Source: Clostridium sp. DL-VIII | GTDB lineage: Bacteria > Bacillota > Clostridia > Clostridiales > Clostridiaceae | Direction: 5' to 3' | Length of the DNA: 64,000 bases | NCBI RefSeq assembly: GCF_000230835.1 | Contig: NZ_CM001240.1 | Coordinates: forward strand, 1,062,501 to 1,126,500 | In this document: one piece after another, positions 28,093 to 48,612 of the stretch | Position numbering within the stretch: the stretch's first letter is position 1 | Layout: every line of letters begins with the position of its first letter | The notes under the pieces: model-generated | Seen by the model: the letters and a program-made list of their open reading frames with translations, nothing else | Databases searched by the model: none | Told to the model about the DNA's origin: nothing | Program-made: the position numbers and the translations under genes

Positions 28093-28946
28093 GATTTCAA
28101 TATCTAAAAGAAAACCAAGGAAAATACAACATCAAGAAGGCATGTAGAACATTAAATGTATCTAGAGCTGGATATTATAAATATCTAAATCATAAACCTT
28201 CAAACAGAGATATAGAAAATAAAGTATTAAGTAAAGAGATAAAACAAATTTTCGAGGAACACAAAGGTAGATATGGTTCAATAAGAATAGCCAAAGTTTT
28301 AGATCAAAAAGGAATTCATATTAATAGAAAGAGAGTATCTCGTTTAATGAGAAATATGAAGCTTTTTCCTAGAGGATGTCGTTATCGTTATAAGCATTAC
28401 AATCAGAAAGTTAATGCAGTTGAAAGACCAAATTTACTAAATTAAGTGTTTGAATCTAATAGACGCAATAAAATATGGGTTGGCGATATTACCTATATTC
28501 CAACCAGAAAAGGCACTTTATACCTTGCAGTATTTATAGATATATATTCCCGAAAAGTTGTTGGAGGGTCTATGAACAATAGGATGAAAGATATTCTTGT
28601 AATGGATGCATTTATGCAAGCATACGGAAAAGAACACCCTGAAAAAGGTTTAATTGTACATACAGACCAAGGATCTCAATTTACAGGCGGAAGATTTCAG
28701 GCATTATTGAAACGATATGATGCTATTCATAGTGAAAGTAGAAAAGGAAATCCATACGACAATGCGGTAATGGAATCTTTTTATCGAACAATAAAAAGAG
28801 AGCTTATTCAAGATGCCCATTACGAGTCACCTGAACAAGCTCAAAAAGAAATCTTTAAATACATTGAAATTTATTACAATATTAAAAGAATGCATTCTTC
28901 ATTGGGATATCTCTCTCCATCTCAATTCGAAGAATTAAATTCATAA
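28056..28946 (+). pseudogene. IS3 orfB transposase with nonsense codon
   Basis: The DDE integrase frame has the HTH_21-type region (KYNIKKACRTLNVSRAGYY) and catalytic residues in VGDITYIPT, HTDQGSQF and NAVMESFY. An in-frame TAA at 28443-28445 sits between NLLN and VFES, probably once a CAA codon. A run of seven A near 28050 could be the usual -1 frameshift site from orfA. Confidence 0.88.
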
Positions 28947-29190
28947 AATTTACTTAACTTTGTGTCTACAAAACCTTGACGATTCCAACATTTTATTATT
29001 TTATGCGTCTACCATAAGGGGAGCATATCAGTATGCGACAGCCCCATTCACTTTGTGTAATATCTAAAACATATGATTAAGGAGGAAAAGTACAAGCTAT
29101 ATTATAGTATAAAAACTAATATTTTTTTATTCTAATATGCTTAGAAATTATATGTGAAGCTAAGGTGTAGGTTTATAGCTTGCATTTTTC

Positions 29191-29220
29191 ATTGATTTGA
29201 TTGCCTGCGGCAGCAAAGAA
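29191..29220 (+). promoter_or_regulatory. Conserved dyad upstream of RNA copy A
   Basis: The word TTGCCTGCGGCAGCAA, a near-perfect dyad, and about 14 bases before it also occur upstream of RNA copy B (37320-37350, minus strand), at a similar distance of 210-240 bp from the 5' helix. It may be an operator or a 5' domain of the same transcript. Hairpins at 29219-29252 (AATTGTC/GACAATT) and 29263-29282 (TTGGAG/CTCCAA) lie between. Confidence 0.5.
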
Positions 29221-29456
29221 ATTGTCCTAGCACTAAAGGGCTGAGACAATTGAAAATATATTTGTTGGAGCTGGCACTCCAATCTTTTAATCTTTGTATA
29301 TAATCACGAGTATTTGTAATTGCTTATATATATCGTATGCTTAAGCTCATAGTTTATTAAAGTTAATGTGTTATTCACCTTATATATGTTTAGTATGGTT
29401 AGTATTACTATATACGCATTTTATATAGTAAAAGTTTTTAAGACAGATAATTCTTT

Positions 29457-30142
29457 GGCGCCGCCATCCACCACCCAAAAAAGGACAGGTCATCAGCATA
29501 TAGCTCTAAGCATATAGGAGTTTTCCGGCAAGCTTCAACCTCCTATATACTAAGAGCTATTATACATTAGACTAGTCCTTTATTTGGGTTCCCGGTGGGC
29601 GCAGAAGGCATGTACACTTCGCTAAATAACTCGTTGTCCCGTAAATGTCCAAGCTAAAATATTAAAGGCTATGAATTTTTATGTTCTTTTTGTGTTTTTA
29701 GAATTTATGAAAATTAAGATTTAGTCTTTAATTTCAGCTAGAACACTTCGGGAAACGTTATTTAGCTAAATGTACATGCCTTCTTTGTGGTAATTGGGTT
29801 TTCTGGGGCAGATTACAGAGAATGTGCTACTTATGGTATTTAGTGCATTGAGTTAATGGAGATGATGCTGCAGGTGCATAAATAAAAGGGCGCCTTGGAC
29901 TTGCCCACACCAGGATAATAGAGATAAGGTTTGATGGAAGGTGAGGGCAGGTCCACAATGTACATGCTTACCTACTAGTCCTTTTTAGTAATGGCGTTCT
30001 TTCCGCTTAAGAAATCCAATCACTAAAAATAATATAAATAAATATTAAAGAGGAAATTATTTTTAGTGATTCGGTTTCTTACTCTCCAATAACACTCATT
30101 ACTAACAAGGACAGGCATAAAAGCAAGTACATTGACGGCGCT
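29457..30142 (+). ncRNA. Large structured RNA, copy A (about 690 nt)
   Basis: A non-coding stretch sharing many segments with 36443-37108 on the other strand. The ends pair (GCGCCG 29458 with CGGCGC 30136). CCACCCAAAAAAGGAC pairs with GTCCTTTATTTGGG. A long arm pairs AGAAGGCATGTACA (29602) with TGTACATGCCTTCT (29770). TGGACTTGCCC pairs with GGGCAGGTCCA, TGTACATGCTT with AAGCAAGTACA, and CACTAAAAATAAT with ATTATTTTTAGTG. Pairs vary together between copies. Size and complexity recall ROOL/GOLLD-type RNAs; class not proven. Confidence 0.8.
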
Positions 30143-30306
30143 CTTTAGAAAAAATTAGTTAATAGTACCTATGGTAATGTGTAGCTTATAAAAAGTATGC
30201 ACTAAATAAAACAATGTTCTTTGAAAATTGAATAATGCGATGATAATATATAATTAAGGACAAGATTAATTATTATTTAAAAATTATATTAAACGAGGTG
30301 AAGTAG

Positions 30307-30744
30307 ATGAAAGATGAGATAATAATTAGAGCTATGAATGAACTAGACGTAAATCACGTACTTGAATTGTGGAGTATAGCTTTGGAGTTATCTTTTTTAA
30401 AAAATTCTGTTAAAAAAGAAGATTTGATAAAATATATCAAGAGAAATCCAGGTGTTAGTTCGGTAGCATGCACAGTAGATAGAAAAGTAATAGGAGCTTT
30501 ATTATGTGGACATGACGGAATAAGAGGATTTATTTATCATATTGCTGTATCTAATGAGTATAGAGTTAGTGAAATTGCAAAAAGGATGCTAAATCATTCT
30601 TTGTTAAAGTTAGGAGAAGTCGGAATTAAAACGGGATTTATATTTACACAAAATAATAATTATGGCATGGATGAGACTTTTAACTCTATAGGGTGGGTTG
30701 TAGTTCCTAATAAACTTTCTTCAGGTGAACAGTTTGGACTATAA
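30307..30744 (+). CDS. GNAT-family acetyltransferase
   Basis: A 145-residue protein with the GNAT acyl-CoA layout: IIIRAMNELDVNHVLELW at the N-terminus, VIGALLCGHDG, and YHIAVSNEYRVSEIAKRML in the motif A position, where the usual Q/RxxGxG loop is degenerate. AGGTGA lies nine bases before ATG. The gene lies between the 3' end of RNA copy A and a second copy of that 3' end (30791-30912), as if inserted as a cassette. The substrate is unknown; toxin-like GNATs exist but nothing here shows that role. Confidence 0.82.
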   Translation: MKDEIIIRAMNELDVNHVLELWSIALELSFLKNSVKKEDLIKYIKRNPGVSSVACTVDRKVIGALLCGHDGIRGFIYHIAVSNEYRVSEIAKRMLNHSLLKLGEVGIKTGFIFTQNNNYGMDETFNSIGWVVVPNKLSSGEQFGL

Positions 30745-30790
30745 TGCAATTGCAATTAAAATAAAAAGATATATATTTAATGACGTATTA

Positions 30791-30912
30791 CTCAAAAAAT
30801 AATAGAAATAAATATTAAAGAGGAAATTATTTTTAGTGATACGATTTCTTTCGATTCAATAACACTCATCACTAATAAGGATAGGGAGAAAAGCAAGTAT
30901 ATTGACGGCGCC
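30791..30912 (+). repeat. Duplicated 3' end of the large RNA (copy C)
   Basis: Aligns without gaps to 30021-30142 at an offset of 770 bp; by hand about 105 of the first 120 positions agree, including 35 identical in a row. Only the 3' domain is present. Its last bases, CGGCGCC, pair with the 5' end of copy A (GGCGCCG at 29457) even better than copy A's own end does. Confidence 0.8.
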
Positions 30913-31062
30913 TATATAATAAAAGTGAGATTTTGAAAATTGAAATGAAAAAGTATTAGTTGATAAAAAGACAAAAAAATAAATATTTACTTGATAAAAA
31001 AGTTGTGATATACAAAAACTGATGCTATAATTTATATATAAAATAGGAATGAGGTGATTGGT

Positions 31063-31716
31063 GTGGAAGTTAATGAGAAGATAGAGGAATTGATAAAAAA
31101 GGAAGAAAGGGAAAGTATATATTATATTTTGTATATTGGAGTTTCAGCATACAAAAGATTATTAGAAGATTATCCAGAATTGACAAGGTCAGATTCGTTT
31201 TCAGAAATTAGAACTAGAATCCTAAGCTTTGTTATAAAAAGACAATTTGAAGATGATGTGTTATCCAAGGAATTTCCATTTAAGGTTCAATTAAAAGATG
31301 TCAATAAATTCAAAAGTAAGGCTTTATTTTTAAATAATAAATTAACTAGATTGAAGATACATAAAACGGTTAGAAGAAATACGCTTCATAACAGTAATAA
31401 GATTTCTGATTATATGTTGAAAGAATCAGAAGTTAATGCGAAGCATAGAAAACAAATAAAAATGTTAATTTTTGAAAATAATGAAGCACAAATCGGTGAA
31501 GAAAAGCATACTTTTATGATTTTAGGATATGGGGTTAGGGAGAAAGAAATAGATCATTTAGATTTTATGATTCCTAGTTGGGATATGAAAAAAGTAGAAG
31601 AAACTTTTAATGCATTGGAAGAGTATAAACAAACAATTTTAATGGATACTAATAAAGAGCAAACTGAAAAGAGAATACTATCGCTTAAAGAAGAGGCAAT
31701 AGGATTAGTAAAATAA
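31063..31716 (+). CDS. Hypothetical partner of Xre-ImmA protein
   Basis: A protein of about 217 residues, charged and mostly helical at both ends, with no motif I recognise. GTG at 31063, five to six bases after AGGTGA, is the likely start; an in-frame GTG at 31054 overlaps that site. It ends 24 bp before the Xre-ImmA gene on the same strand. Such small partners of Xre-ImmA proteins are sometimes toxins or proteins cleaved by the protease. That role is inference from context only. Confidence 0.65.
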   Translation: MEVNEKIEELIKKEERESIYYILYIGVSAYKRLLEDYPELTRSDSFSEIRTRILSFVIKRQFEDDVLSKEFPFKVQLKDVNKFKSKALFLNNKLTRLKIHKTVRRNTLHNSNKISDYMLKESEVNAKHRKQIKMLIFENNEAQIGEEKHTFMILGYGVREKEIDHLDFMIPSWDMKKVEETFNALEEYKQTILMDTNKEQTEKRILSLKEEAIGLVK

Positions 31717-31740
31717 GATTAGGAAGGTGAAAACATAGTT

Positions 31741-32889
31741 ATGAAGGTTATAGAGTTTGGTTCTATAAAAAGTAATAAGATAGTTCCAGCAAAATTAAAA
31801 GAAGCTAGAGTTGCAAGAGCTCTATCTTTATCACAACTTTCAAAACTAATAGGCGTATCAAGTCAAGCAATATCACAATTTGAAAAAGGTGAAACAAAGC
31901 CAAGTTCACAAACATTATTTAAACTAATAGAAATTTTAGATTTTCCAATAAATTTTTTCTGTTCAAATCATAATCAAAGTCTAGAAAATGAGATAATATA
32001 TTTTAGGAGTAATAAAAATATAACTAAGAAATTAAAAGATGCATGTAAGTCTAGAATTACATGGATTGAAAAAGTATATATGTTAATAGAATCATATTTT
32101 GAATTGCCTAAATTACAAATACCTAAGCTTGCTGAAGTGGATGTAGAAAGCATAGACAATAGAAAAATAGAAGAACTTACTTTAAGATTAAGAGAATACT
32201 GGGGATTAGATCAGTCTCCAATAGATAATTTAGTAGATTTATTACAATCAAAAGGTTTTGTTATTACTAAATTAAAGATAGGAACAAAAAAAATAGATGC
32301 ATTTTCTATTTGGAAAAATGGAGTACCATATATTTTTTTAGGTGACGATAAGGAGTCAGTAACAAGATTAAGATTTGATTTGGCACATGAATTGGCTCAT
32401 TTGTTAATGCATAGATATATAGATAAAGAAGAACTAGAAGAAGATAAAGAACTATATAACAAAATTGAGGAACAAGCAAATTATTTTGCATCAGCATTTC
32501 TATTGCCGATAGAAGCTTTTAATAAAGAAGTCATATCTTCATCTATAGATAGTTTTATTCTATTGAAGAAAAGATGGAAAGTCTCAATATCAGCGATGAT
32601 AAAAAGATGTCAAAATGCAAATATTTTAACTGATAATCAAATAAGATATTTAAATTCACAGATGATAAAATATGGCTATTATAGAAAAGAACCATTAGAT
32701 GAAGAAATAAAGAAAGAAACTCCATATTTATTCAAACAAGCATTTGAAATATTACTAGAAAATAATATTTATACAAAAGAAGCAATATTAGAAAAATTGG
32801 AGTTAAATAAAGATGAAGCAATAGAGCTTTATTCTTTAGATAAATTATTTTTTGATAGAAGTAATAATATATTAAAATTAATAAAATAG
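31741..32889 (+). CDS. Xre HTH - ImmA/IrrE metallopeptidase fusion
   Basis: A 382-residue protein: Xre-type HTH at about 17-72 (LKEARVARALSLSQLSKLIGVSSQAISQFE region) and an ImmA/IrrE zinc protease domain with HELAH at 216-220 and a downstream Glu in EEQANYFASAFLLP. Homologues cleave phage-type repressors or act as antitoxins (Xre-COG2856 pairs). It is paired with the unknown gene at 31063 and ends in a terminator. It probably represses its own operon and releases it on a stress signal. Confidence 0.9.
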   Translation: MKVIEFGSIKSNKIVPAKLKEARVARALSLSQLSKLIGVSSQAISQFEKGETKPSSQTLFKLIEILDFPINFFCSNHNQSLENEIIYFRSNKNITKKLKDACKSRITWIEKVYMLIESYFELPKLQIPKLAEVDVESIDNRKIEELTLRLREYWGLDQSPIDNLVDLLQSKGFVITKLKIGTKKIDAFSIWKNGVPYIFLGDDKESVTRLRFDLAHELAHLLMHRYIDKEELEEDKELYNKIEEQANYFASAFLLPIEAFNKEVISSSIDSFILLKKRWKVSISAMIKRCQNANILTDNQIRYLNSQMIKYGYYRKEPLDEEIKKETPYLFKQAFEILLENNIYTKEAILEKLELNKDEAIELYSLDKLFFDRSNNILKLIK

Positions 32890-33190
32890 GCTGAATGAGT
32901 AACTGAGGTGCTATTCCAGATAATAGTATCTCTATTTTTTGCTATGAAAAACTTCAAAAATGCAGTAATTTAAAGATGGGACGTAAGATAATAATATTTA
33001 TAATTGATAGTAAAATATATAATACTGAAAAAGCATAATCGATAATTAAATTTATAAGATGAGTAGTTACCTAAGCCTACAAAAAGTCGACAGATAATAT
33101 AAATTTAATTTTGTTATATTACTGTCACAAATTGCAAGTATTATATAAACATAAAGTAGTTAAATATTATTTACCCCTATTAAATATATA

Positions 33191-33270
33191 ATAACCAATA
33201 TTTAGAATGATCTATTCACCCTAGTAGATCATTCTTTTTTATTTATAAAATTAGATTTGTTTAAGGTATG
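33191..33270 (+). repeat. Direct repeat R3, copy a
   Basis: About 80 bp, starting in the terminator and including TTTTTTATTTAT, TTAGATTTG and TTAAGGTATG, recur at 34211-34290 on the other side of the wall-binding gene. Confidence 0.6.
33204..33240 (+). terminator. Strong terminator
   Basis: An 11-bp perfect stem (33204-33214 with 33225-33235) and a T tract to 33240. A weaker hairpin at about 32905-32940 also ends in T residues. No gene was seen in 32890-33392. Confidence 0.85.
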
Positions 33271-33392
33271 CTGAATATTAATGATGAAGCATTTTTGTAA
33301 GAATCATAATGAAATTTCATGTTTTATACATAAAAGGAATTTAGGATAATATGTAGAAATAATTAAATAAATGACAATAGGAGGAAATAAGA

Positions 33393-34193
33393 ATGATTAA
33401 TTTTTTATTTTTGGTTAGTTTAATTTGCCTTATTATAGGAATTATTAAGCCTAATAAGTTAATGTTTTGGCTGGAAGAAAGTAAGAGAAACAGAAAAAAT
33501 GTTCTTAAATATTTTGGAACAGCAACAATTATTTTTTTGATTTTAGTTGGAGTTTTTAATTCGAGCAATTCTACAAAGGTAACTAATAGCACAATAAGTA
33601 AGAACGAAGTGGTAGAAAATACAGGAGGAGAACAAAAGCAAGAAAAAATTGAGAAACCTCAGGATGTTAAAAAAGTTGGATGGACACAAGAAAATGGGAA
33701 ATGGTATTATTATGGAGAAGATGGGAAGACAAAAACAGGATGGATTAAGGATGATAATAAGTCTTACTATCTAAGTTCTTCAGGAATTTTACAGACAGGC
33801 TGGGTAAAAGATAATGGAAAAGACTATTATTTAGATGATTTGGGAGTTATGCAGACTGGATGGAAAGAAAGTAATGATAAATGGTATTACCTAAGTTCCG
33901 ATGGCTCAATGGAAAAAAATACTACAGTTGATGGCTACCACTTATCAGCAAGCGGGGTAATGGAGGAGAAAAATTCAAGTAATTCTAGTGGAAGTAGTAA
34001 TTCAGTTACAAGCAGTAGCTCAGGTGGTACTCAATATGTAGATGAAAATGGAAATGGTCTTATAAAAGGAAGTGTAAATCATATATATCACGTACCAGGT
34101 AGTACATATTATAGTAGAACAAAAAATGTTGCACGCTGGTTTAAGACAGTTGAGGAAGCACAGGCAGCTGGATATAGGGCACCAGAGAAATAG
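33393..34193 (+). CDS. Wall-repeat protein with C-terminal sunset-type domain
   Basis: A 266-residue protein with two N-terminal hydrophobic stretches (1-20 and about 45-58), four choline-binding-type repeats (GWTQENGKWYYYGEDGKT to GYHLSASGVME, about 90-190), a Ser/Asn linker, and a C-terminal SVNHIYHVPGSTYYSRT...WFKTVEEAQAAGYRAP module. That last module is the small domain often at the end of secreted nucleases and called sunset. It is probably surface-bound. GGAGG precedes the ATG. It is flanked by repeat R3. Confidence 0.85.
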   Translation: MINFLFLVSLICLIIGIIKPNKLMFWLEESKRNRKNVLKYFGTATIIFLILVGVFNSSNSTKVTNSTISKNEVVENTGGEQKQEKIEKPQDVKKVGWTQENGKWYYYGEDGKTKTGWIKDDNKSYYLSSSGILQTGWVKDNGKDYYLDDLGVMQTGWKESNDKWYYLSSDGSMEKNTTVDGYHLSASGVMEEKNSSNSSGSSNSVTSSSSGGTQYVDENGNGLIKGSVNHIYHVPGSTYYSRTKNVARWFKTVEEAQAAGYRAPEK

Positions 34194-34210
34194 AAGTATA
34201 TAAAAATTAT

Positions 34211-34290
34211 TTGATTAGTATTCAGAATAGTAGATTTATTTCAGTAGATAGTTTTTTATTTATGGAATTGGATTTAATTAAGGTATATGG
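34211..34290 (+). repeat. Direct repeat R3, copy b
   Basis: Diverged copy of 33191-33270 directly after the wall-binding gene. The terminator stem seen in copy a is reduced here. Confidence 0.55.
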
Positions 34291-34446
34291 AAATACCAAC
34301 AAAGAAATTTTTAAAAAGCTCTATATAAACAAAAATTCTAATAAATAAGATATTGTAGAATGAAGAGAAGTTTAATTTTTAGATTATAATAATAGAGCTT
34401 TCTTAAAATAATGTTTTTGGGAAGAGCAATTATACCAGTAGAACAT

Positions 34447-34492
34447 AAATATTGTAAAGGGGATTGCGAGCACTCACCCCTGTACAATATTT
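34447..34492. terminator. Bidirectional terminator hairpin
   Basis: A 10-bp perfect stem (34447-34456 with 34483-34492) with a GGGG/CCCC inner helix. A smaller hairpin, ACCTGG/CCAGGT (34673-34696), ends the minus-strand gene that follows. No gene was seen in 34194-34696. Confidence 0.7.
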
Positions 34493-34696
34493 ATTTTCTA
34501 TGGAGCTTGGTAATTACCCCAAAAACAGCAGAAGCTTGTCCTATAATTTTGGCAGTTAATGCTGTAGGTTTTCAATATTTTAAGTTTTGACGTTGGTATA
34601 GTCAGGTATTAGAGTTTTATATTTTTATAAGCTTGGTTTTGTAGCAGCAATGCTTATTATTATGAGAAATAGACCTGGGAAAGTACCTCTCCAGGT

Positions 34697-34873
34697 TTAT
34701 TTAATTTCAATTTCAAGTTGCAGTGGTCTTGTATCAAGGTAATGTTTATATTCTATTTTATAGTATAGAATTAATTTACTTCTTACTGCGTAAGGTAATG
34801 TATTTACAAGTGAATCAAATTGAGCTTTTGATACAAAGCCTTTTTCTTTTATAAGCCATGTTGTAAATGTCAT
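34697..34873 (-). CDS. Small hypothetical protein, FTxWL type
   Basis: A 58-residue protein starting MTFTTWLIKEKGF. The ATG at 34873 has AAGGGA about nine bases before it; two more ATGs lie 12 and 18 bases upstream. The start resembles that of the next minus-strand gene (FTFTKWL), so the two are probably diverged paralogues of a phage-type small protein. Function unknown. Confidence 0.55.
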   Translation of the reverse strand: MTFTTWLIKEKGFVSKAQFDSLVNTLPYAVRSKLILYYKIEYKHYLDTRPLQLEIEIK

Positions 34874-34934
34874 TAGGTTCATTCCCTTCATATTATATAT
34901 TAAGTTTCTAATAGGCGTAGATAGGCATGTGTCT

Positions 34935-35108
34935 CTAATCCCATTCAGTTTGTAAATATTCTAAAAAGTATTGATATTTCTCGTGATAATAGAAATCAGT
35001 GTTTTTAGCTTCTTCTTTGGACATGGTGGACAACCAATATTTGTAGTGGCCAAATGAATTAAAAGTTTCTTTAGTATTGAGCCATTTTGTAAATGTGAAT
35101 TTTCTCAT
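34935..35108 (-). CDS. Small hypothetical protein, FTxWL type
   Basis: A 57-residue protein (MRKFTFTKWLNTKETFNSF...LEYLQTEWD) with many aromatic and charged residues. AGAGAGGA precedes the ATG at 35108. It lies upstream of the related gene at 34697 on the same strand, with 61 bp between. The short helical pattern suggests a SAM-like or YozE-like fold, but I cannot confirm it. Confidence 0.55.
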   Translation of the reverse strand: MRKFTFTKWLNTKETFNSFGHYKYWLSTMSKEEAKNTDFYYHEKYQYFLEYLQTEWD

Positions 35109-35291
35109 GATTACGCAAATCCTCTCTAAATATAAAAGTTATTATATAAATCTTTATACTATAATTATGCCCATTAATGGGAACGAATATTCGTAAATGC
35201 TTGTACCTAAATGTACTTTTTTTATTAGGTCGGAATGTATAATACTTGAATTAATGGACACAATATTTGACAGAGAAGGAGTGACGAAAGT

Positions 35292-35456
35292 ATGGACAAT
35301 AAACAAAAACCTAAACTAGAAAAAGCACCAACTAAACAAGCTCATTTTGAGTGTGAAGTGGCATTATATGAGAAGTTTGAAGCATATTGTCATAGGAATG
35401 GAAAGAATGTAAGTAATGCATTAAGAGCATACATTAAAATGTGTGTGGGAGAATAA
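35292..35456 (+). CDS. Small RHH-like DNA-binding protein
   Basis: A 54-residue protein. After a basic N-terminus comes a strand HFECEVALYEKFEAYC and the turn NGKNVSNALRAYIKMC, the pattern of ribbon-helix-helix repressors of plasmid and phage origin. AAGGAG precedes the ATG. It likely regulates its own or the next gene. Confidence 0.6.
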   Translation: MDNKQKPKLEKAPTKQAHFECEVALYEKFEAYCHRNGKNVSNALRAYIKMCVGE

Positions 35457-35572
35457 AGAACAATTTAAAGTATCTAAAAACAGGTACTTTTTTTGTACAT
35501 AAAAATGCATAAAATTTCTAGGTATGGAGAGAATATTAATAGAGGGAGGGCATGAAAGGAAGGTTGTACAAA

Positions 35573-35926
35573 ATGGATAAAAGGAAGTATCAAACAAAGA
35601 CATTAATTGCACAATATGAATATTTAACTGAATTAGAGGACTTTAGATTTTCTGAAATGTCTTACAGATTGAAAGATGGTTCAATAATAATAGAATATGA
35701 AGGCGCTTGCCATAGTCTCTATGGGTTAAAACTAAGCTTCAGTAAGAGCATTGTTAGAAAAGGCATCTATAGTATTAATGACTATGATTTTCGAATGTGG
35801 AAATCAATAAGAAGTAAAATAGAAGGTAGCTCGTTCATTGATTGGGAAAAAGAAATGAATGAACAATTTGAGGATGAACATGAAAATGTTCTAAAGTGCG
35901 TTGGAGAAAACGAACTGTTATATTGA
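35573..35926 (+). CDS. Hypothetical protein
   Basis: A 117-residue soluble protein (MDKRKYQTKTLIAQYEYLTE...), rich in acidic residues at its end, with no recognisable motif. The ATG at 35573 has AGGAAGG ten bases before it; an ATG at 35552 is too close to its own site. A GGGGGCGAAAGTCCCC hairpin at 35941-35956 follows. It is typical of small phage or plasmid genes. Confidence 0.55.
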   Translation: MDKRKYQTKTLIAQYEYLTELEDFRFSEMSYRLKDGSIIIEYEGACHSLYGLKLSFSKSIVRKGIYSINDYDFRMWKSIRSKIEGSSFIDWEKEMNEQFEDEHENVLKCVGENELLY

Positions 35927-36035
35927 ATACTAAGTACATAGGGGGCGAAAGTCCCCAAAAGAGAAAATATTATAGGAAAAGAAGGTTATAAGATGATATA
36001 CATTGATATCAATTTAAAGATTATAAGAATAGCAA

Positions 36036-36374
36036 TTGAAGAGGGATTTCCTGATAAAATTTATAGACATGGCAATTATTTTGTTTTTAACAGAAATTCA
36101 TTTTAGGTATAGGGGAGAAATCTCCAAGAGGAAAAGGAAAAGCTTACCTAGAACAGAAAAGTGGACAAGCTTCAAAGCAGCAATGAGCTTTACAGGAGAG
36201 CGTATCCCACCAGACAGCATAATACCACATAGATTTTTTCATATTGACTACACATATTTATTTGAAATTCAAGTCAAGATTAAAGCACAGCGTGTCTTTA
36301 CTTTAATTTTAAATAAATATACCCTAAAATATGAAAAAAGCCTATTTAATAGATTCTCTCAAGCTTTTGGATGA
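36036..36374 (+). CDS. Doubtful hypothetical ORF
   Basis: A 112-residue frame with no clear ribosome site and odd composition; it begins inside a competing 37-codon ORF (ATG at 35993 with AAGGTT upstream) that ends at 36106. Either may be a decayed gene. It stops 69 bp before the 3' end of RNA copy B on the other strand. Confidence 0.2.
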   Translation: MKRDFLIKFIDMAIILFLTEIHFRYRGEISKRKRKSLPRTEKWTSFKAAMSFTGERIPPDSIIPHRFFHIDYTYLFEIQVKIKAQRVFTLILNKYTLKYEKSLFNRFSQAFG

Positions 36375-36442
36375 AAAAATCACAGTATATCATAAATATA
36401 TCAATAAACCCAATATAAAAGAATTTTCCAAAGTTTCTATAG

Positions 36443-37108
36443 GGGCATTCTTGTACTTGCTTTTCAGCCTGTCATTTTTAGGGATGAGTGTTATTGAAGC
36501 GAAAAAAACCGAATGACTAAAAATAATTTCCCTGTAATATAATTTTGATTATTTTTAGTTATTGGATTTTTTGTAGCGGAAATAACGCCATTACTAAAAA
36601 TGACTAGCCGGCAAGCAAGTACAAGATGGACCTGCCAGCACTCTTCCGATCAAATTTAATTATATATTAGTGATGGCATGTCCAAGGCCCCGACCTTTTG
36701 TCAGTGTACTGACCTAATATCTAAAGTTCCAGTATATCCATAAATTATAAAGTTACCATACAACCTGAATATAAGCCTTGTGCTTCACCATGCTGTTGTT
36801 TTTGTACAAGAGTCATATACTAAAGTTGCTAAGCACATAAAATAAAATATATACTTCAGTTCCTGTAAGAGGGGTGGACTAATTTTAATATACTATTAGG
36901 AAATGGAATACTGTAAATTATCTACTTATTAATGTATCAGCAAACATCACCACCCAGACGCACTCCATCGGGTACCCAAACAAAGGACTAGTTTAATCCT
37001 ACCTAGTTCTTAGTTGGTAAAAGGCTCTGACTTTGGAAGAGACTTTTAACGACTTAGAAATAGGAGGCAATAACCTGTCCCCTTTTTTGGGTGATGGATC
37101 AAGTGCCC
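36443..37108 (-). ncRNA. Large structured RNA, copy B (about 666 nt)
   Basis: Minus-strand homologue of 29457-30142. The ends pair differently from copy A but pair: GGGCACTTG (37108-37100) with CAAGAATGCCC (36453-36443). CACCCAAA pairs with TTTGGGT, TGGACATGCC with GGCAGGTCCA, and TGTACTTGCTT perfectly with AAGCAAGTACA. ACTAAAAATAAT pairs with ATTATTTTTAGT. GTCATT/AATGAC replaces GTCCTT/AAGGAC of copy A. The long middle arm of A is replaced by unrelated AT-rich sequence. No protein frame fits. Confidence 0.8.
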
Positions 37109-37277
37109 AGATATCAATTTATAAAAACAACATGTCCTTTAAAAAATACGTATATAGCTATAGCTATAGCAATACTATCTATAATATAACAGTATAGGCA
37201 TATAAAATATAGTAAACTTATTAGTCATATATATAGAATTCAAATTAAGTACATAGAAATAAAACTAAACTAATGGA

Positions 37278-37308
37278 GTGGCGTAGCCACAAGGAGCACG
37301 CAGTGCTC
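37278..37308. repeat. Tandem GC-rich mini-hairpins
   Basis: GTGGC-GTA-GCCAC (37278-37290) and GAGCAC-GCA-GTGCTC (37294-37308) are perfect stems with three-base GTA/GCA loops in very AT-rich DNA. A similar word, GAGCGAAGCGAC, is at 37461-37472. Purpose unknown. Confidence 0.6.
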
Positions 37309-37319
37309 ATATATATTTA

Positions 37320-37350
37320 TTCCTTGCTGCCGCAGGCTACAACAAACAAT
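37320..37350 (-). promoter_or_regulatory. Conserved dyad upstream of RNA copy B
   Basis: Minus-strand counterpart of 29191-29220, keeping GCCTGCGGCAGCAA. It lies 212 bp upstream of the copy B 5' helix. Confidence 0.5.
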
Positions 37351-37487
37351 GAGAAGTAGAAGCTATATGGATTTTATTAATGTTTAGAACATACCACCAT
37401 AATATTAAAGTACTAAAAAATAATGTAATCCATAAAATAGCTGGAACTTCTATTCCTTAGGAGCGAAGCGACGTTATTGAATTACAA

Positions 37488-37561
37488 AAGATGGACTAAA
37501 TAAAGCTATAGCTAAATTTTAAATTATATCATAACTGTAATAGCTTTATTCTGTCCATCTT
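37488..37561. repeat. Long interrupted hairpin
   Basis: AAGATGGAC (37488-37496) pairs with GTCCATCTT (37553-37561), and ATAAAGCTAT inside pairs with ATAGCTTTAT. It is in the 680-bp gap between RNA copy B and the YvrJ gene, where no gene was seen. Could be another small RNA. Confidence 0.5.
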
Positions 37562-37746
37562 AACTCCTTTTATTGAGAGAAACATTAACTTACGAGTGTA
37601 ACGAGCATAATTAAAAGATATTAATTAGTTCAAGCTGAAAGGAATATAGGAGAGTAGAAACTTTATTAAATGAGGTTCTTTAAAACGTAGATTTTCTTTG
37701 CTTAAAGTATATTAATATCTTCCTTTAAAGAAGTACGAATAAATTT

Positions 37747-37785
37747 AAAGGCAATAAACACTTAAATAAAATGTTTATCGCCTTT
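37747..37785 (-). terminator. Terminator of the YvrJ gene
   Basis: A 14-bp stem with one mismatch (37747-37760 with 37772-37785) begins just past the stop codon of the minus-strand gene at 37788. Confidence 0.75.
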
Positions 37786-37787
37786 AT

Positions 37788-37985
37788 TCAAGCTACTTTA
37801 TTAGGATCATCACTAGAATCTACATCTAGAGCTACTCCAAGCTTTGCTGATATTATGGTATTTAATTTATTAATTGAACTTGATAAGCTAACAATTTGTT
37901 TTTCTAAGCGAATCAGCAAATATGCAGAAACAGCTACAGGGAAACCATTATTCACTATCAAATTTATTAATTCGTTCACTTCCAT
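37788..37985 (-). CDS. YvrJ-family small membrane protein
   Basis: A 65-residue protein: MEVNELINLIVNNGFPVAVSAYLLIRLEKQ, with one membrane helix then an amphipathic segment. This matches YvrJ proteins and resembles the small holin-like UviB/BhlA proteins. GGAGGTGAT precedes the ATG. A holin-like role fits the nearby amidase at 40971 and the UviA-like sigma factor at 40140, but is inference. Confidence 0.75.
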   Translation of the reverse strand: MEVNELINLIVNNGFPVAVSAYLLIRLEKQIVSLSSSINKLNTIISAKLGVALDVDSSDDPNKVA

Positions 37986-38093
37986 AATTTAATCACCTCC
38001 CATAAGGGATATATGAGCAAAAGCATATTGATTCATAAAACAAATAAAATAATATCAATATTACGATTAGCAATAAATTAGGAAAATTATTTA

Positions 38094-38582
38094 CTACTGA
38101 CTGCCACCATTAATTATATGTTCATAGTAATGAGCTATAGCTAAATCAACTATAGTACTTACATAAGTATTTAATTGAGGATGGATACTTTTAAGTTCAT
38201 TAATTTTTCTAACAGTAGAAGCTCTAAGCATATAGGTTCTCTTCACATCTAAGAATTCTCCATTAATAGGTGGAGCCATACCATTTACTACAGTAGCTTT
38301 TCTATTATCTTCTAAGGTACTATTTTGATTTGATGCATTTGGATTAGTGGTAGAGGAAATATTAAAGTCTATGGTAGCTTTAGAAGAGGTACTAATATTG
38401 TTCATATTTTCATTATATATTGTAAAATTAGTTTTATTTTCATTTATGGAATCATCATCGAATGAAAATGATGAAATACAATCTCCATTTGCAACAGGTT
38501 CAGATGTAAATCTGCAAACATCTATATTCTCTTCAGCTGCGAAATCATTTATAGGTAGTTTATCTTGTTTTCTTCTTGCCAT
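38094..38582 (-). CDS. RHH-type partition or copy-control-like protein
   Basis: A 162-residue protein with a long, low-complexity Asn/Ser-rich N-terminal half and a C-terminal ribbon-helix-helix-like domain (KRTYMLRASTVRKINELKS...YVSTIVDLAIAHYYEHI). This is the layout of plasmid ParG/Omega-like DNA-binding proteins. AAGGAG precedes the ATG. A 10-bp palindrome 29 bases upstream could be its operator. It suggests that this segment descends from a plasmid or plasmid-like phage. No ParA partner is present. Confidence 0.6.
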   Translation of the reverse strand: MARRKQDKLPINDFAAEENIDVCRFTSEPVANGDCISSFSFDDDSINENKTNFTIYNENMNNISTSSKATIDFNISSTTNPNASNQNSTLEDNRKATVVNGMAPPINGEFLDVKRTYMLRASTVRKINELKSIHPQLNTYVSTIVDLAIAHYYEHIINGGSQ

Positions 38583-38610
38583 ATAAATAGTCTCCTTTTA
38601 ATTTTAATGA

Positions 38611-38635
38611 AGTTAACTAGCAGAGCTAGTTAACT
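38611..38635 (-). promoter_or_regulatory. Perfect palindrome, candidate operator
   Basis: AGTTAACTAG (38611-38620) and CTAGTTAACT (38626-38635) flank CAGAG, just upstream of the RHH gene. A likely site for that protein, or an mRNA hairpin. A looser hairpin ATGCCCA/TGGGCAT is at about 38660-38707. Confidence 0.55.
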
Positions 38636-38753
38636 AAGTTCGAATAACAAAATGCAAGATGCCCATAGGGAAAGTTCATGTTTCCAAATATAAAATTTGG
38701 GCATTCACTTTTTGATTCTTACTTATCTTACTTAGGATATATGGCTAAATGAA

Positions 38754-38821
38754 GCATATTCTAATATGGTTCACCATAAATATTCTAAACCATATTACCA
38801 TAAATATTCTTCAGAATATGC
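38754..38821. repeat. Nested inverted repeat with two iteron-like words
   Basis: GCATATTCT (38754-38762) pairs with AGAATATGC (38813-38821), with ATATGGTT/AACCATAT inside. Two exact copies of ACCATAAATATTCT at 38773-38786 and 38797-38810 are 24 bp apart. It resembles an origin or partition site; no replication gene is nearby. Confidence 0.5.
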
Positions 38822-38963
38822 GCCTAAAATGCTGGTTGAGAGGGTGTACAGCTATAAAAATATTCTTTAATTTAATGTTACGTCAGAGCATAAAACATAT
38901 ATCTATAATAGCAGCTAATAAATTTTCTTAAGCTGTAAATAAATTAATGGAAGGTGTTTAAAA

Positions 38964-39206
38964 ATGATTAGAGATGAAATTAAGATTGGATCAGAAGAAG
39001 GAGAGGTTTTTGATAAAAAACAAATAGCATTGGCAATTAGAAATTCCACTTTTGAAGATGATTTAAAATGTTCATTGATAGAGGATGGTATATTAGATAA
39101 ATGCCAAGGCTGCAGCCTTAAACAGATTTGTGATGGAATAGATCATGTTGTTGATAATTATGTGGACAAAACTACAGAGGTTGTGAATAATTTTAGTTTT
39201 GAATAG
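38964..39206 (+). CDS. Small Cys-containing hypothetical protein
   Basis: An 80-residue acidic protein with a cysteine group CSLIEDGILDKCQGCSLKQIC that could bind a metal or an Fe-S cluster. GGAAGGTG lies upstream of the ATG. Family not recognised; the spacing C-x10-C-x2-C-x5-C is the only notable feature. Confidence 0.6.
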   Translation: MIRDEIKIGSEEGEVFDKKQIALAIRNSTFEDDLKCSLIEDGILDKCQGCSLKQICDGIDHVVDNYVDKTTEVVNNFSFE

Positions 39207-39389
39207 AGTATATTTTTAATCTCTAGAACTATGAAATTATAATAAATAAGAATCTGTAAACAAGAGAATTTGAGATGTTTTAAGAAATTTAAATATAGGT
39301 TATAATTACAGTATAGACAATGTGTTAAGTTAAATATGTGAGATAAAGCAATAAGTTAAAAAATGATATTATAAAAGGAGGCTTTAGAT

Positions 39390-39641
39390 ATGCTATGGAA
39401 TGAGGTAAGAAAGACTTATCCTAATAAATGGGTTGTATTTGATGGATTGAAACAATATGAGGAAGATAATAAATTAATTGTTGAAGATTTAGCAATAGTA
39501 GAAGTGTTTTCAGATTTAAACACAGCTTACAAGTATTATTGTAATCTTCATAAACAGGATAAATCACGTAAATTAAATATTGGTGATACACGGAAAGAAA
39601 GCCTTGAATTTAAAATCGAAAGGATCGGATTAATGAGATGA
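39390..39641 (+). CDS. Small hypothetical protein paired with retropepsin
   Basis: An 83-residue protein (MLWNEVRKTYPNKWVVFDGL...FSDLNTAYKYYCNLHKQ). AGGAGG precedes the ATG. Its stop overlaps the start of the next gene (ATGA at 39638-39641), so the two are translated as a unit. The same pairing with a retropepsin-like gene recurs in Firmicutes as far as I recall; the role is unknown. Confidence 0.75.
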   Translation: MLWNEVRKTYPNKWVVFDGLKQYEEDNKLIVEDLAIVEVFSDLNTAYKYYCNLHKQDKSRKLNIGDTRKESLEFKIERIGLMR

Positions 39642-40015
39642 TAAATTTAAGGTACGAACATAAGTTATTATTTTGTTCCTTGGACTTGGCTATTGATAAT
39701 AAGCTGCTGCATTTTGAAAATGTATTGATAGATACTGGTTCAGCTACTACTCTAATAAATAGTGATTATATTCATTTTGATGGGAATGAAGAGCTTATTA
39801 ATGTGCATGGCGTTGGAGGTTATGAATCTGTTTTAATGAAGCCTTTTAAAAATGTAAATATTAATAATGATTACACTGTACATGATGTTCTTTTATGTGT
39901 TGGTGAAATGGATTATGGGATTGACATTGATTTACTCATTGTATTAGATTTATTGAAAGCACTTAATGCTGATATTAGCATCAAAAATATGTGTCTAGAG
40001 TTTTCGGAGTGTTAA
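39638..40015 (+). CDS. Retropepsin-like aspartic protease
   Basis: A 125-residue protein with the aspartic protease signature VLIDTGSATTLI near residue 30 and VHGVGGYE near 65. Single-domain retropepsins work as dimers. It has no signal peptide and is presumably cytoplasmic. It is translationally coupled to the small gene before it and ends in a strong hairpin. The substrate may be its partner protein, which is a guess. Confidence 0.8.
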   Translation: MINLRYEHKLLFCSLDLAIDNKLLHFENVLIDTGSATTLINSDYIHFDGNEELINVHGVGGYESVLMKPFKNVNINNDYTVHDVLLCVGEMDYGIDIDLLIVLDLLKALNADISIKNMCLEFSEC

Positions 40016-40097
40016 ATGTCAAAATAATATGCAATTAATAAATGTACAGGACAACTGAAACCATATTTTTAATTAAATTGATTAATATTGTAATAAT

Positions 40098-40127
40098 AAC
40101 AGCTCCAAGGATAACCTTGGAGCTGTT
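40098..40127. terminator. Bidirectional terminator
   Basis: A perfect 13-bp stem (40098-40110 with 40115-40127) around ATAA, between the convergent protease and sigma-factor genes. Confidence 0.85.
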
Positions 40128-40139
40128 AGATGTTTAGCT

Positions 40140-40712
40140 TTAATAATACAATGAAATGTTTTCAAGGATTTTCATTAAAATGCTTTTCTTTTTTAGAATA
40201 GCAGTAGAGTAACACATATTTTTCAAATAAGCATATTCTTTAACAGTGTAATTTTTGTAGAATACAAAATCTATAAATTCAACTTCCTCTTCATTTAAAT
40301 TCTTAAGAGCTAATTTTAAATCTTCATAGTCACACATTTCACATAATGAAGTTTCAGTGGAAATTTCAAGACCTGGAAAATCATTTTCAACATAAGCATG
40401 TAAGCTTAATGCATCACTACCTTCAGTAGATCTTCTGTTTTTAGTTCTTTTTATTAAATCATTCATATTATTTTTAATGGCATTAGTAGCATAGGCAACA
40501 AATCTATGCTTTTCTAAATTGTACCTAGAAACAGATTTGAAAAGTGAATGGTAACATTCTTGGATAATATCATATGGGTTATATCCATCAATGAAAGTTC
40601 TTTTAGAAATATTATAAATTAAAGGCCTAAATTCATAAGCTAATTTTTCTTTTGCTTCTTCATCATTATTTTTACATCTGGTAACTAAAGCTTCAATAAA
40701 ATCAAAATCCAT
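40140..40712 (-). CDS. UviA/TcdR-like alternative sigma factor
   Basis: A 190-residue sigma-70-type protein: region 2 (EFRPLIYNISKRTFIDGYNPYDIIQECYHSLFKSVSRY) and region 4 (LNEEEVEFIDFVFYKNYTVKEYAYLKNMCYSTAILKKK). The small two-domain layout, the low-GC clostridial host and the holin-like and lysin genes around it resemble the toxin/bacteriocin sigma group TcdR, BotR, TetR and UviA. ATG at 40712 is five bases after GGAGG; an earlier ATG is less likely. Its targets may be the lysis genes; matching -35/-10 boxes were not found. Confidence 0.75.
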   Translation of the reverse strand: MDFDFIEALVTRCKNNDEEAKEKLAYEFRPLIYNISKRTFIDGYNPYDIIQECYHSLFKSVSRYNLEKHRFVAYATNAIKNNMNDLIKRTKNRRSTEGSDALSLHAYVENDFPGLEISTETSLCEMCDYEDLKLALKNLNEEEVEFIDFVFYKNYTVKEYAYLKNMCYSTAILKKKSILMKILENISLYY

Positions 40713-40970
40713 ACAAACCTCCATTTTCAATATAAGAGTTATGAATTAAAGTAATTATTTTACATATATTGTGTTTGGTTTTAAATTTACCTCTATATAT
40801 AGTATATATGGCTAGATTACATATAACGTATATAGGAGTATAAAAATAATTAGACTTATGTTGTTACTTAGGTTTTTTATATTGAAGTTCTTGGTTGCAG
40901 CATAGCTGCTCTTTTTAAAGGTGTATAACTTATATGAAAAAGTAAAAAAATTAGAGGTAGGTGTATAAAA

Positions 40971-41807
40971 ATGAGCGATTTTATAATAGCTGTAGGGCAT
41001 ACTGCAAGTGGAAATGTTGGGAGCGGAGTTATTGATAGGCTAAATGAGAGCAATTGCAGTCGTGATATTGGAGCTTTGGTTGCAGATTATTTAAAAGAAA
41101 AAGGACATGGAGTTAATTTACTTAGAATTGATAAGAGTAATAGCTATAGCTGTGAAGATTGTTATGAAAGAGCTTATAAAGCTAATGAAATTGCAAAGAC
41201 AATAGATGTGGAATTATATGTAGAAATTCATATAAATGCAGGGGGAGGAACTGGTCCAGAGGTCTTGGTTACTGGTAAATCAGAAGTAGCAAATCAATAT
41301 GCAGTTAAAATAAGTACATCATTATCAAGTGCTTTGAATTTACCTAACAGAGGGATGAAAACAAGAAACTTGATTGTTCTAAATGAAACTATTATGCCTG
41401 CAATTTTAGTTGAGTGTTTGTTTGCTGATAGTGAGGATGCAGATGTGTATGATCTGGAGATTATTGCTAGAGCTATTGTTTGTGGTTTAGTTGGTGCTAA
41501 TGATTCTAGTTGTGGAGAATGGAACTTGGGTTGGAACAGAAATGACATTGGGTGGTGGTATTGCTTAAATATAGAAGATAAAAGCTACTATACATCAAAA
41601 GATGGATGGCAGGAGATTGATGGAGAGTGGTATATATTTGATAGTAGGGGATATGCGTTACAAGATGCCTGGCACTATGATGAAAATAATAAAGCATGGT
41701 ATTACTTAGATTCAAGTTGTAAAATGCTGAGAGGAAGCAAGGATAAACCCTTGTGGAAGTGTGTAGATAGTTGGTGCTATGCTTTTGATGATAGTGGGAA
41801 GATGTAG
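40971..41807 (+). CDS. N-acetylmuramoyl-L-alanine amidase, wall-repeat tail, truncated
   Basis: A 278-residue Amidase_3 protein that cuts peptidoglycan between MurNAc and L-Ala. AVGHTAS, the Glu-containing stretch after it, YVEIHINAGG and ILVECLFADSED carry the zinc and catalytic residues. Choline-binding-type repeats follow from about residue 187. No signal peptide, as in endolysins exported by a holin. The frame ends at TAG 41805-41807 inside the last repeat; the next bases still encode CDCVTPDGWSVDKSGNWVE, the usual end of such tails, so the stop probably replaced a Tyr codon and removes about 20 residues. Confidence 0.88.
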   Translation: MSDFIIAVGHTASGNVGSGVIDRLNESNCSRDIGALVADYLKEKGHGVNLLRIDKSNSYSCEDCYERAYKANEIAKTIDVELYVEIHINAGGGTGPEVLVTGKSEVANQYAVKISTSLSSALNLPNRGMKTRNLIVLNETIMPAILVECLFADSEDADVYDLEIIARAIVCGLVGANDSSCGEWNLGWNRNDIGWWYCLNIEDKSYYTSKDGWQEIDGEWYIFDSRGYALQDAWHYDENNKAWYYLDSSCKMLRGSKDKPLWKCVDSWCYAFDDSGKM

Positions 41808-42098: not shown

Positions 42099-43616
42099 AT
42101 GGATATTACTTATACACAAGATATTAAAAATAAAGCGCGGAGAATAATGCTTCAACATGCTGTAAAGTCTCTTACAATTGATAGAAATTCAGCTAGTTGT
42201 GTGGATAACTATTATGTTAGAAATATATATAATTATCTTCTTTCACTAGCTGAAGGGCATGATTATGATGAAACTCTTAAAATAGACTTAGATTATATTG
42301 TTGAATGGGAGAGACATTGGGCTGTTCAAATTGGAAGTAAGAAACCCGAAGATTTAACTGTTTGTTATTTATCTGGACCAGAACCACAAAATGATTTTAA
42401 TGAGTTAATTTCTCTAGGAATATTACCACAAAATATATGGGCTTTTGAGATGAATAGAGGAATCTATACCCAAGCGCTTGACTCTTATGATAATTCTAAT
42501 TTTAAGCAACCTAAAATAATAAAAATGTCTATTGAAAAGTTTTTCGAGTCTATTCCTAAAAAGTTTGACATTGTATATATAGATGCTTGTGGATCATTAA
42601 TATCTGACAAACATGCATTAAGATGTATTTCAACATTATTTAAGTATCACAGATTAAATTCTCCAGGAATGTTGTTAACAAATTTTGCGGAAATAGAAGC
42701 AGGTAACCATACTGAGCGATCTATATATGTAGACATTATGTCAAAATATTTTTTATTAAAACAAAATTCGAATGCTAGACTAATAGATGATGAAAAAGCA
42801 TTTTTCAAAGAAATTAATCAAAGCAAATTTAATGAATTAGATGATAATTTCGATTACTACTATGGAGAATTGATAACATCACTTATTTGTGATATAGCGT
42901 CAGTAACTGTGCCAAGTTTAAGATTTGCCAATTCACGATGTTGGAGTGACTTTATAGATGTTATTCCACCTATGTGCGATTATATAGATATCAAGGATGT
43001 TAATGCAATCAAGAATAATTCAGTTTACAAGTTTTTTCTTTGTAATAAGTTTTTTGAAGGGTTTAATTCTACAGATAGGGGTATTTCTAAGATAAATAAA
43101 TTAGCCAGTGAAATGACAGGTATTACTCCTCAAAATATTGATTTGTTAAGTTCAATGAGAATAATTCAAACTATAAAGAATGGAGATAATATACGTGGAG
43201 ATATTAAAGAATTATTTGAATATTTTGATTCAGGAAGTATGTATCAGTTTTTGGACAAGCCAAATAAGAATATGTTTTTAGATTTAACCATTAATCAGCT
43301 TTCGTATCCTATGCATTATGTATCTCATAATGCTAAAAGAATATCATATAGAGCAAAGGAAACAAAAATGTTTATGGATGCAATGATTTTTGATGAATGC
43401 AGATACATTTATGAATGGTTGCCAGCAGTGCATCAAATAAAAAATGCTTTCCAGAATTTAAGTTGGCAATATGTGTTTAGATTTGCAGTAGATGGTCTTG
43501 TAAAACAACGTTTTAATTATAATAATGAATTCTTTTTTCAAGGCTCAGTAGTAAGCAAAGAAATTGATGGATTTAAAGAAAAATGTATAAAAGAGAGAGA
43601 ATATATAGGAGGTTAA
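42099..43616 (+). CDS. Methyltransferase-like protein of a DUF262 cassette
   Basis: A 505-residue protein. Residues 86-170 have a Rossmann pattern like class I methyltransferases: VCYLSGPEPQND in place of motif I, WAFEMNRGIYTQAL as strand 2 acid loop, and FDIVYIDACGSL (156-166) as motif IV-like, without a typical DPPY or NPPY. The C-terminal two thirds are not recognised. AGGAG precedes the ATG. It ends three bases before the DUF262 gene, so the two form one operon. It may modify or sense DNA or nucleotides; this is inference. Confidence 0.7.
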   Translation: MDITYTQDIKNKARRIMLQHAVKSLTIDRNSASCVDNYYVRNIYNYLLSLAEGHDYDETLKIDLDYIVEWERHWAVQIGSKKPEDLTVCYLSGPEPQNDFNELISLGILPQNIWAFEMNRGIYTQALDSYDNSNFKQPKIIKMSIEKFFESIPKKFDIVYIDACGSLISDKHALRCISTLFKYHRLNSPGMLLTNFAEIEAGNHTERSIYVDIMSKYFLLKQNSNARLIDDEKAFFKEINQSKFNELDDNFDYYYGELITSLICDIASVTVPSLRFANSRCWSDFIDVIPPMCDYIDIKDVNAIKNNSVYKFFLCNKFFEGFNSTDRGISKINKLASEMTGITPQNIDLLSSMRIIQTIKNGDNIRGDIKELFEYFDSGSMYQFLDKPNKNMFLDLTINQLSYPMHYVSHNAKRISYRAKETKMFMDAMIFDECRYIYEWLPAVHQIKNAFQNLSWQYVFRFAVDGLVKQRFNYNNEFFFQGSVVSKEIDGFKEKCIKEREYIGG

Positions 43617-43619
43617 ATC

Positions 43620-45950: not shown

Positions 45951-46006
45951 TTAAGTGAATTATAATAGTAACGTTTAAGCATTGATATTATTAAAATTAT
46001 GAAATT

Positions 46007-46041
46007 GACGGAAGAACTAAAATTTTCACTAATCTTCCGTC
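46007..46041 (+). terminator. Terminator of the DUF262 operon
   Basis: A perfect 9-bp stem (46007-46015 with 46033-46041) 57 bp after the stop codon. Confidence 0.65.
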
Positions 46042-46480: not shown

Positions 46481-46806
46481 GAATACAGAACTCGGCTTAT
46501 TTAAAATGTAAAAATTAACATTAAATTTTGCTTCTACATTCAAAAAGCATAAGACTAAATATTAATATTCTTGAATTAATATTAATTTTATTGTAAGTTT
46601 ATAAAATTGAAAAATATAAGTTATTTACAGTTAAGAAGATTTTAACAAAATAATTTCCAATAGCAGCACCTTGGAAAACTTTAGTGTTATTATATCCTAA
46701 ATAATGTTATTTTATAAGGGGCAAAGTGAGGGGCAAAACACAATTTTAACGTTTTATGTACAAACTCAAAATAGCATGGTTATCAGATTTATTGAAAAAT
46801 AGCTTT

Positions 46807-48601: not shown

Positions 48602-48612
48602 GAAATCACTCC

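Follow-up and report, generated by a model that had tools for sequence, protein, structure and literature searches.

Inverted non-coding ends with a conserved fold around changing accessory genes in Clostridium

Two inverted non-coding stretches enclose accessory and core genes

The window analysed here (the whole stretch of 64 kb, bases 1062501-1126500 of a 6.48-Mb contig of Clostridium sp. DL-VIII, NZ_CM001240.1) harbours two non-coding stretches, A (29454-30150, + strand) and B (36440-37112, - strand), which are inverted relative to each other and lie at the ends of a unit of accessory genes. We describe their fold, their relatives and their base changes, and discuss the possibility that they mark, as folded DNA, the ends of an exchangeable or mobile gene unit. 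A and B share segments in the same order, as stated in a preliminary description of this DNA; their 3' parts are 80% identical over approximately 245 nt, and a 5' hairpin is also common to both. The two stretches had thus been correctly recognized, but their limits were drawn too narrowly: the end homology extends approximately 380 bp further out on the left and 460 bp on the right, and then stops sharply. Each end comprises approximately 1.1 kb of hairpins; three of them, P1 (approximately 160 nt), P2 and P3, are present in a full end. In the window unit the ends face inward, with the accessory genes and four small core genes between them. The outer edges are located at about 29079 and 37569, the outer part of the left end being truncated relative to other left ends. 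The features of the locus are as follows.

29079-29457, +: outer part of the left end; AT-rich, with palindromes resembling repetitive extragenic palindromes (REP-like) and the motif CTATATACG; homology to other ends stops at about this point
29454-29610, +: hairpin P1 of the left end; the most conserved fold, 150 bits with the covariance model R1
29602-29785, +: hairpin P2 of the left end; 44 conserved pairs
29888-30143, +: hairpin P3 of the left end; base of 7 bp, arms 29896-29955 and 29956-30134
30307-30744, +: GNAT acetyltransferase, accessory
30795-30923, +: left-end 3' part, second copy; 87% identity, brackets the GNAT gene together with 30025-30154
31054-31716, +: RmrT-like protein (PADLOC E 6.5e-4)
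31741-32889, +: RmrA defence protein with helix-turn-helix and IrrE/M78 peptidase (PADLOC E 5e-130; Pfam)
33393-34193, +: choline-binding, endolysin-related protein
34697-34891, -: core protein c0a, 64 aa; recurs across elements
34935-35108, -: core protein c0b, 57 aa, paralogue of c0a; recurs across elements
35292-35456, +: ribbon-helix-helix (RHH)-like core protein, 54 aa; Pfam RHH_1 below cut-off, PHROG 876 E 1.8e-4
35552-35926, +: core protein c1, 124 aa, orphan family; in 18 of 20 units
36440-36700, -: hairpin P3 of the right end; conserved helices 36684-36627 and 36577-36499, base placed by inspection
36953-37111, -: hairpin P1 of the right end; 145.9 bits with model R1
37108-37569, -: outer part of the right end; sharp edge AAGGAGTTAAGATGGAC
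37788-41807: conserved block with YvrJ holin-like protein (-), RHH-type p162 (-), p80 (+), sigma factor (-) and endolysin amidase (+)
45948-46500, +: right edge of the surrounding island; rnpB 3'-end fragment at 46484-46499

The cargo of the window unit (GNAT, RmrT/RmrA and the choline-binding protein) is itself bracketed in places by repeats. The second copy of the left-end 3' part behind the GNAT gene resembles certain other elements (up to 91% identity) more than its neighbour, and direct repeats of approximately 35 bp with 86% identity (33235-33269 and 34252-34286) flank the choline-binding gene. We regard these bracketing repeats as signs of cassette stacking.

Related units share core genes and edges and differ in their cargo

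A search of the genus with A as query gave matches in 30 of 68 genomes, although some matches were weak and short. Many of the matching genomes have A-type and B-type ends on opposite strands, separated by a few kb, and 20 such units were compared. Their recurring core consists of two small paralogous open reading frames (ORFs), a divergent 54-aa RHH-like protein and c1. Where c1 is present, it points outward at its nearer end in 17 of the 18 units (the exception being L062), and this nearer end is B-type wherever the types are distinguishable. By alignment c1 was found in 13 of the 68 genus genomes and in 13 of 206 family genomes; its named relatives are mostly from Clostridium, four of them from C. 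beijerinckii. None of the core proteins matched a Pfam family above cut-off, and the predicted structure of c1 (mean predicted local distance difference test score, pLDDT, 76.8) gave no fold match at E<=0.001.

The cargo changes from unit to unit. It comprises a PDC-S28 helicase with a reverse transcriptase, possibly that of a group II intron (L049), a PDC-M36A-like protein (L051), a metallo-hydrolase in a gene cluster shared by three units (L046, L047 and L053), a subtilase with a peptidoglycan-binding domain (L058), a zinc dehydrogenase (L054) and a periplasmic binding protein (L057). Among the cargo ORFs scanned, which were a part of all, transposase families were detected inside a unit at L009 only. 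At this locus a B-type end is split by approximately 1.8 kb (L009:17123-18940), and the ORFs of the split region cluster with the DDE_Tnp_1 transposase of the same locus.

Like transposons with terminal inverted repeats, the units have inverted ends with sharp outer edges, for which the sequences AAGGAGTTAAGATGG (right type) and AAGGAAGTAATAGAC (left type) were found. Since further repeat blocks are common to the outer flanks of some units, such an edge delimits the shared end and does not prove a transposition edge.

The ends share a covarying multi-armed fold

When folded as DNA, A reached -131.8 kcal/mol compared to a mean of -66.4 for shuffled sequences (z -12.2), and B -96.9 compared to -62.3 (z -8.5); these energies were reached by none of 20 shuffles each. 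The P1 alignment A5 contains 33 of the 34 listed P1 matches (L049:15511-15653, the 5' base of which is degenerate, was left out). It has 45 pairs in eight helices, with 95.2% of the cells paired, as well as conserved unpaired bases. Changes on both sides occur in 27 of the 45 pairs, corresponding to 194 double-change cells. The covariation score is 0.375 in comparison to 0.141 in shuffles and at most 0.093 when the alignment is slid by one to three columns, which destroys the pairing, and all five measures were above all 500 shuffles. Covariation in P1 is thus far beyond chance, and the conserved helices with compensatory changes proposed in the preliminary description are confirmed by the 33 ends.

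The long-range outer helix proposed there (GCGCCG/CGGCGC in A and GGGCACTTG/CAAGAATGCCC in B) is better interpreted as two separate helices, each at the base of a local hairpin. Its 5' arm pairs at the base of P1 (GCGCC/GGCGC, GTGCC/GGCAC and GCACT/AGTGC across different ends), while the partner of its 3' arm is the 5' base of P3 (GGGCGCC at 29888, or the corresponding sequence). The homologues were also checked for a reading frame kept instead of the helices; none is conserved across the start of P1, a small toxin ORF upstream of P1 included.

Could such a fold be maintained without a function? Template-switch mutation may keep long palindromes perfect and, according to the part of PMC8794818 that deals with it, yields double changes without wobble intermediates. 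Long quasi-palindromes are indeed present in P2 and P3 (44 and 67 conserved pairs, respectively), but the same eight-helix P1 fold with its conserved unpaired bases recurs in 14 genera, and we consider this explanation quite improbable. It is also conceivable that the ends are passive repeats, which provide shared homology for cargo exchange by homologous recombination, and that their fold is irrelevant. The direct repeats of neighbouring non-coding DNA around the GNAT and choline-binding genes would fit such a process. However, the mean identity of the ends is 71-75% (77% per column in P1), and at this divergence the covariation preserves the fold and not the sequence, which makes passive repeats very improbable.

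P1 copies are found in one family and are frequently paired inward

The covariance model R1, built on P1, matched in 42 of 200 genomes of the family, representing 14 of 46 genera. In a sample of the class 7 of 391 genomes were positive, all seven belonging to this family. The R1 searches scored few candidates per genome, in the family at most 14, so that the following orientation counts, which leave out reverse-strand shadow matches, are lower bounds. Neighbouring P1 copies within 10 kb (18 pairs) were inward-facing in 13 cases, outward-facing in none and in tandem in five; within 60 kb (30 pairs) there were 17 inward, six outward and seven tandem pairs. The outward pairs are approximately 12-23 kb apart and could be the ends of adjacent units. 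Inward pairs around changing cargo suit the ends of an element. When R1 was applied to the 20 units (L012 counted with L013), P1 was found at both ends in 12 of them.

The preliminary description had suggested a search of clostridial genomes and phages. Homologues were found in the genus and the family; phage and plasmid collections searched with A and with c1, and viral contigs searched with the P1 pattern and with c1, yielded no match.

Genes beside distant P1 copies at loci picked by their R1 match and not by their cargo (L155, L157, L158 and L159) include, on the inner side of P1, HsdM (L158) and a UvrD-like helicase (L159). In searches of solved structures with P1 neighbours, four of six gave relatives of a methylase, HsdS, HsdM and a helicase, and two of six had no match. 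A distant member of the genus (L137) contains a small unit with an inverted P1 pair and a divergent c1 inside; relatives of RmrT/RmrA are located just outside of it.

Base changes in the helices point to pairing at the DNA level

If an RNA were under selection, one would expect G-U departures from Watson-Crick pairing to be far better tolerated than A-C departures. In P1, nearly all base changes are double Watson-Crick swaps: the ratio of one-sided to both-sided changes is 26:194, in comparison to 89:131 in RNase P. The G-T:A-C cells amount to 28:24 in the 33 rows, 16:18 in the 26 cleaner rows and 44:32 in a version with 46 rows. A further set of 31 P1 copies, of which 20 belong to other genera and 11 to more distantly related members of this genus, has a ratio of 18:34, with 17 one-sided and 263 both-sided changes (two reverse-strand shadow matches were removed from the corresponding alignment, A7). 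One G-T-dominated pair was set aside in all of these cell counts. The P1 alignments A6 and A7, which have 9 rows in common, were fitted to the P1 structure, and this should favour G-U. As control we used RNase P with its Rfam structure, which gave 35:12 with the filter also applied to P1 (both sets restricted to pairs that are Watson-Crick to at least 60%) and 213:90 unfiltered, and which at 90% identity is not matched in conservation to the ends (71-75%). Thus, the preference for G-U over A-C expected for a functional RNA is present in RNase P and is not seen in P1.

A strand-neutral count, restricted to helices supported on both strands, gave the same picture. Columns with G-T and A-C were 31:37 in A-type ends (14 ends) and 17:21 in B-type ends (18 ends), compared to 13:2 for RNase P from 30 genus genomes (Fisher p 0.004). 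These are the results of the stricter of two criteria; with the other, the cells were 56:107 and 28:59 versus 30:4. Consensus folds without G-U gave 7:29 and 8:23, a version of the test on which we do not rely. Mapping the fold of each end onto the others (2400:1909 and 2558:2201, with approximately threefold as many other mismatches) was non-discriminating; when restricted to pairs common to half of the ends, it gave 33:41 and 29:33. Based on this pattern of base changes, we conclude that the pairing is probably kept at the DNA level.

The preliminary description had considered A and B as a folded RNA, recalling ROOL or GOLLD, with no assignable class. ROOL, GOLLD and OLE have Rfam models; at gathering score, none of 4227 Rfam families matched in the window, and scans of A and B at E<=5 retrieved sub-threshold matches only, mostly to miRNA families. 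The absence of an assignable class is therefore borne out, and the resemblance to ROOL and GOLLD, which in the sections of PMC12286853 that describe them have large complex folds and a phage or prophage setting, holds for size, complexity of the fold and phage-type setting. It does not extend to the Watson-Crick-only changes, the inward pairs around cargo and the lack of an Rfam match. Further, ROOL and GOLLD are often located near tRNA islands, and no tRNA gene was found in the 64 kb scanned, while promoter-like sites in 28900-38700 were not in excess (49 versus 60 in shuffles). A large structured non-coding RNA of phage-derived islands, new in class and ROOL/GOLLD-like in kind, present here as an inverted pair, would still account for the elaborate multi-arm fold with its conserved unpaired bases, the phage-type neighbours, the one conserved G-T pair of P1, the single co-oriented intergenic copies at some distant loci and the units with P1 at one end only. 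Since a wobble preference like that of RNase P is missing and the ends are paired inward around changing cargo, the earlier view of a functional RNA is not supported, and we judge such an RNA to be unlikely.

A DNA-level fold could also serve the cargo as a promoter or as a single-strand origin when the DNA enters the cell or replicates in single-stranded form. Frpo promoters are a precedent, being folded single-stranded DNA beside anti-defence genes according to the portion of PMC11541004 devoted to them. In addition, some copies are located on small second contigs resembling plasmids (G002:C2, 73 kb; G075:C2, 80 kb; G179:C2, 90 kb), and the window cargo is co-oriented with the left end. A promoter, however, does not need an inward pair of copies, and we hold this function to be clearly unlikely.

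A and B as possible folded-DNA ends of an exchangeable unit

With a probability of about 0.5, we propose that A and B are folded-DNA end sites of an exchangeable or mobile accessory-gene unit, often located within phage-derived islands. Upon exposure of a single strand in the course of replication, transfer or excision, each end would fold into its hairpins, and a small DNA-binding protein would recognize the folded ends; the RHH protein and c1 are candidates for this role. The two inward-facing ends would then define the segment to be copied, excised or exchanged, and the ends would be under selection as folded DNA.

Several observations weigh against this proposal. No transposase or integrase was recognized in the core. 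No target-site duplication was detected in six units whose two edges could be located, or at L057, where the left edge is uncertain, and a search with the left flank, which only touched the question of an empty site, gave other neighbourhoods and none that was empty. The unit L055 has the ends and lacks c1, and near 2325 kb of genome G000 the core and the YvrJ block are present without a match to A or B. P1 is at one end only in eight of the 20 units, six of the 30 neighbouring pairs within 60 kb face outward, and at four distant loci (L155-L158) single P1 copies lie in intergenic gaps, co-oriented with their neighbours. The cytosine methylase at L155 and HsdS at L157 lie outward of P1, and defence genes are common but not universal among the cargo. 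Regarding the base changes, P1 versus RNase P alone gives p 0.04-0.05, a modest contrast between cells that are not independent. Columns 38:129 of A5 are G-T in 28 of 33 rows, like a conserved RNA wobble (in the 31 distant rows, GT 20, AT 7 and TA 4). Folding energy does not decide between the strands, being lower for the forward strand in 23 of 38 ends, and the consensus folds have the lower energy on the reverse strand. Two further versions of the test were non-discriminating: with folds lacking G-U the signal was lost even in RNase P (51:47), and strand-separate folds gave high RNase P ratios on both strands.

Folded DNA at ends or beside exchangeable genes is known from other systems. The telomeres of linear Streptomyces replicons have tightly packed conserved palindromes that fold as single strands, as far as described in the relevant part of PMC4513846; the ends found here resemble them by this description and differ in being internal to chromosomes and islands. 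From the Frpo promoters, with which they share folded single-stranded DNA near defence-related genes (PMC11541004, same portion), they differ by their inward pairing.

In integrons, the attC sites are folded DNA adjoining exchangeable cassettes. The likeness to such cassette arrays lies in folded DNA beside exchangeable genes; there, one short hairpin per gene is present, whereas the ends described here are approximately 1.1 kb long.

Literature searches retrieved no description of this element. It is possible, although rather doubtful, that it represents a previously undescribed class of mobile elements, the inverted ends of which are recognized by their multi-armed DNA fold and not by their double-stranded sequence, and which, lacking a recognizable transposase, carries defence systems across 14 or more genera of a single family. 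If true, this would be a new way of marking the ends of exchangeable defence genes. The comparison of G-T and A-C departures needs sequences only and may help to tell whether an ornate non-coding element is structured as DNA or as RNA. With approximately 160 nt, P1 is small enough for in vitro work, and R1 finds it in many genomes.

Conserved block, rnpB islands and neighbouring genes

In the window, the YvrJ-p162-p80-sigma factor-amidase block adjoins the right end. Of the 20 units, 15 have the whole block or a part of it next to them; two of the five exceptions are cut by a contig end. Its position relative to the P1 pair varies: in L184, which belongs to the same genus, the pair is located between p80 and the sigma factor, and in L185 and L186 from another genus it encloses YvrJ-p162-p80. 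The gene pair p83/p125 (39390-40015), which is outside of the unit in the window, is inside a P1-bounded unit in L059, where its relatives include a match to an aspartyl-protease family.

Some units lie in islands that run from the RNase P gene to a second rnpB 3' end. This second end was found 38-79 kb from rnpB in four of five genomes searched (rnpB/second end: G002, 1006372/1052181; G004, 1885378/1964587; G032, 95547/133322; G000, 1573760/1636459), and in the fifth (G013) the two copies are far apart. A tyrosine integrase is encoded beside rnpB in G002, and its relatives are beside rnpB in G032, G004 and G000. In the G002 island, the one that was scanned, the integrase is followed by a CI-type repressor, a replisome organiser and an anti-repressor. 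Together with YvrJ and the endolysin in the window, these genes agree with the phage-like neighbours noted earlier. The window has a 16-nt match to the rnpB 3' end at 46484-46499, with no full rnpB beside it. The integrase may move the island and not necessarily the P1-bounded unit. Since P1-bounded units occur inside such phage-derived islands and also elsewhere in the same genomes, the unit is not the island itself.

Near the island edge in the window, a 505-aa protein and a GmrSD_N protein with an NsnA-like match are encoded at 42099-45950, and this pair is likely a further defence system. Beyond it, at 48218-49419, a protein with a DUF3037 match just below cut-off is encoded beside a HipA-like kinase, and the two are possibly a toxin-antitoxin pair.

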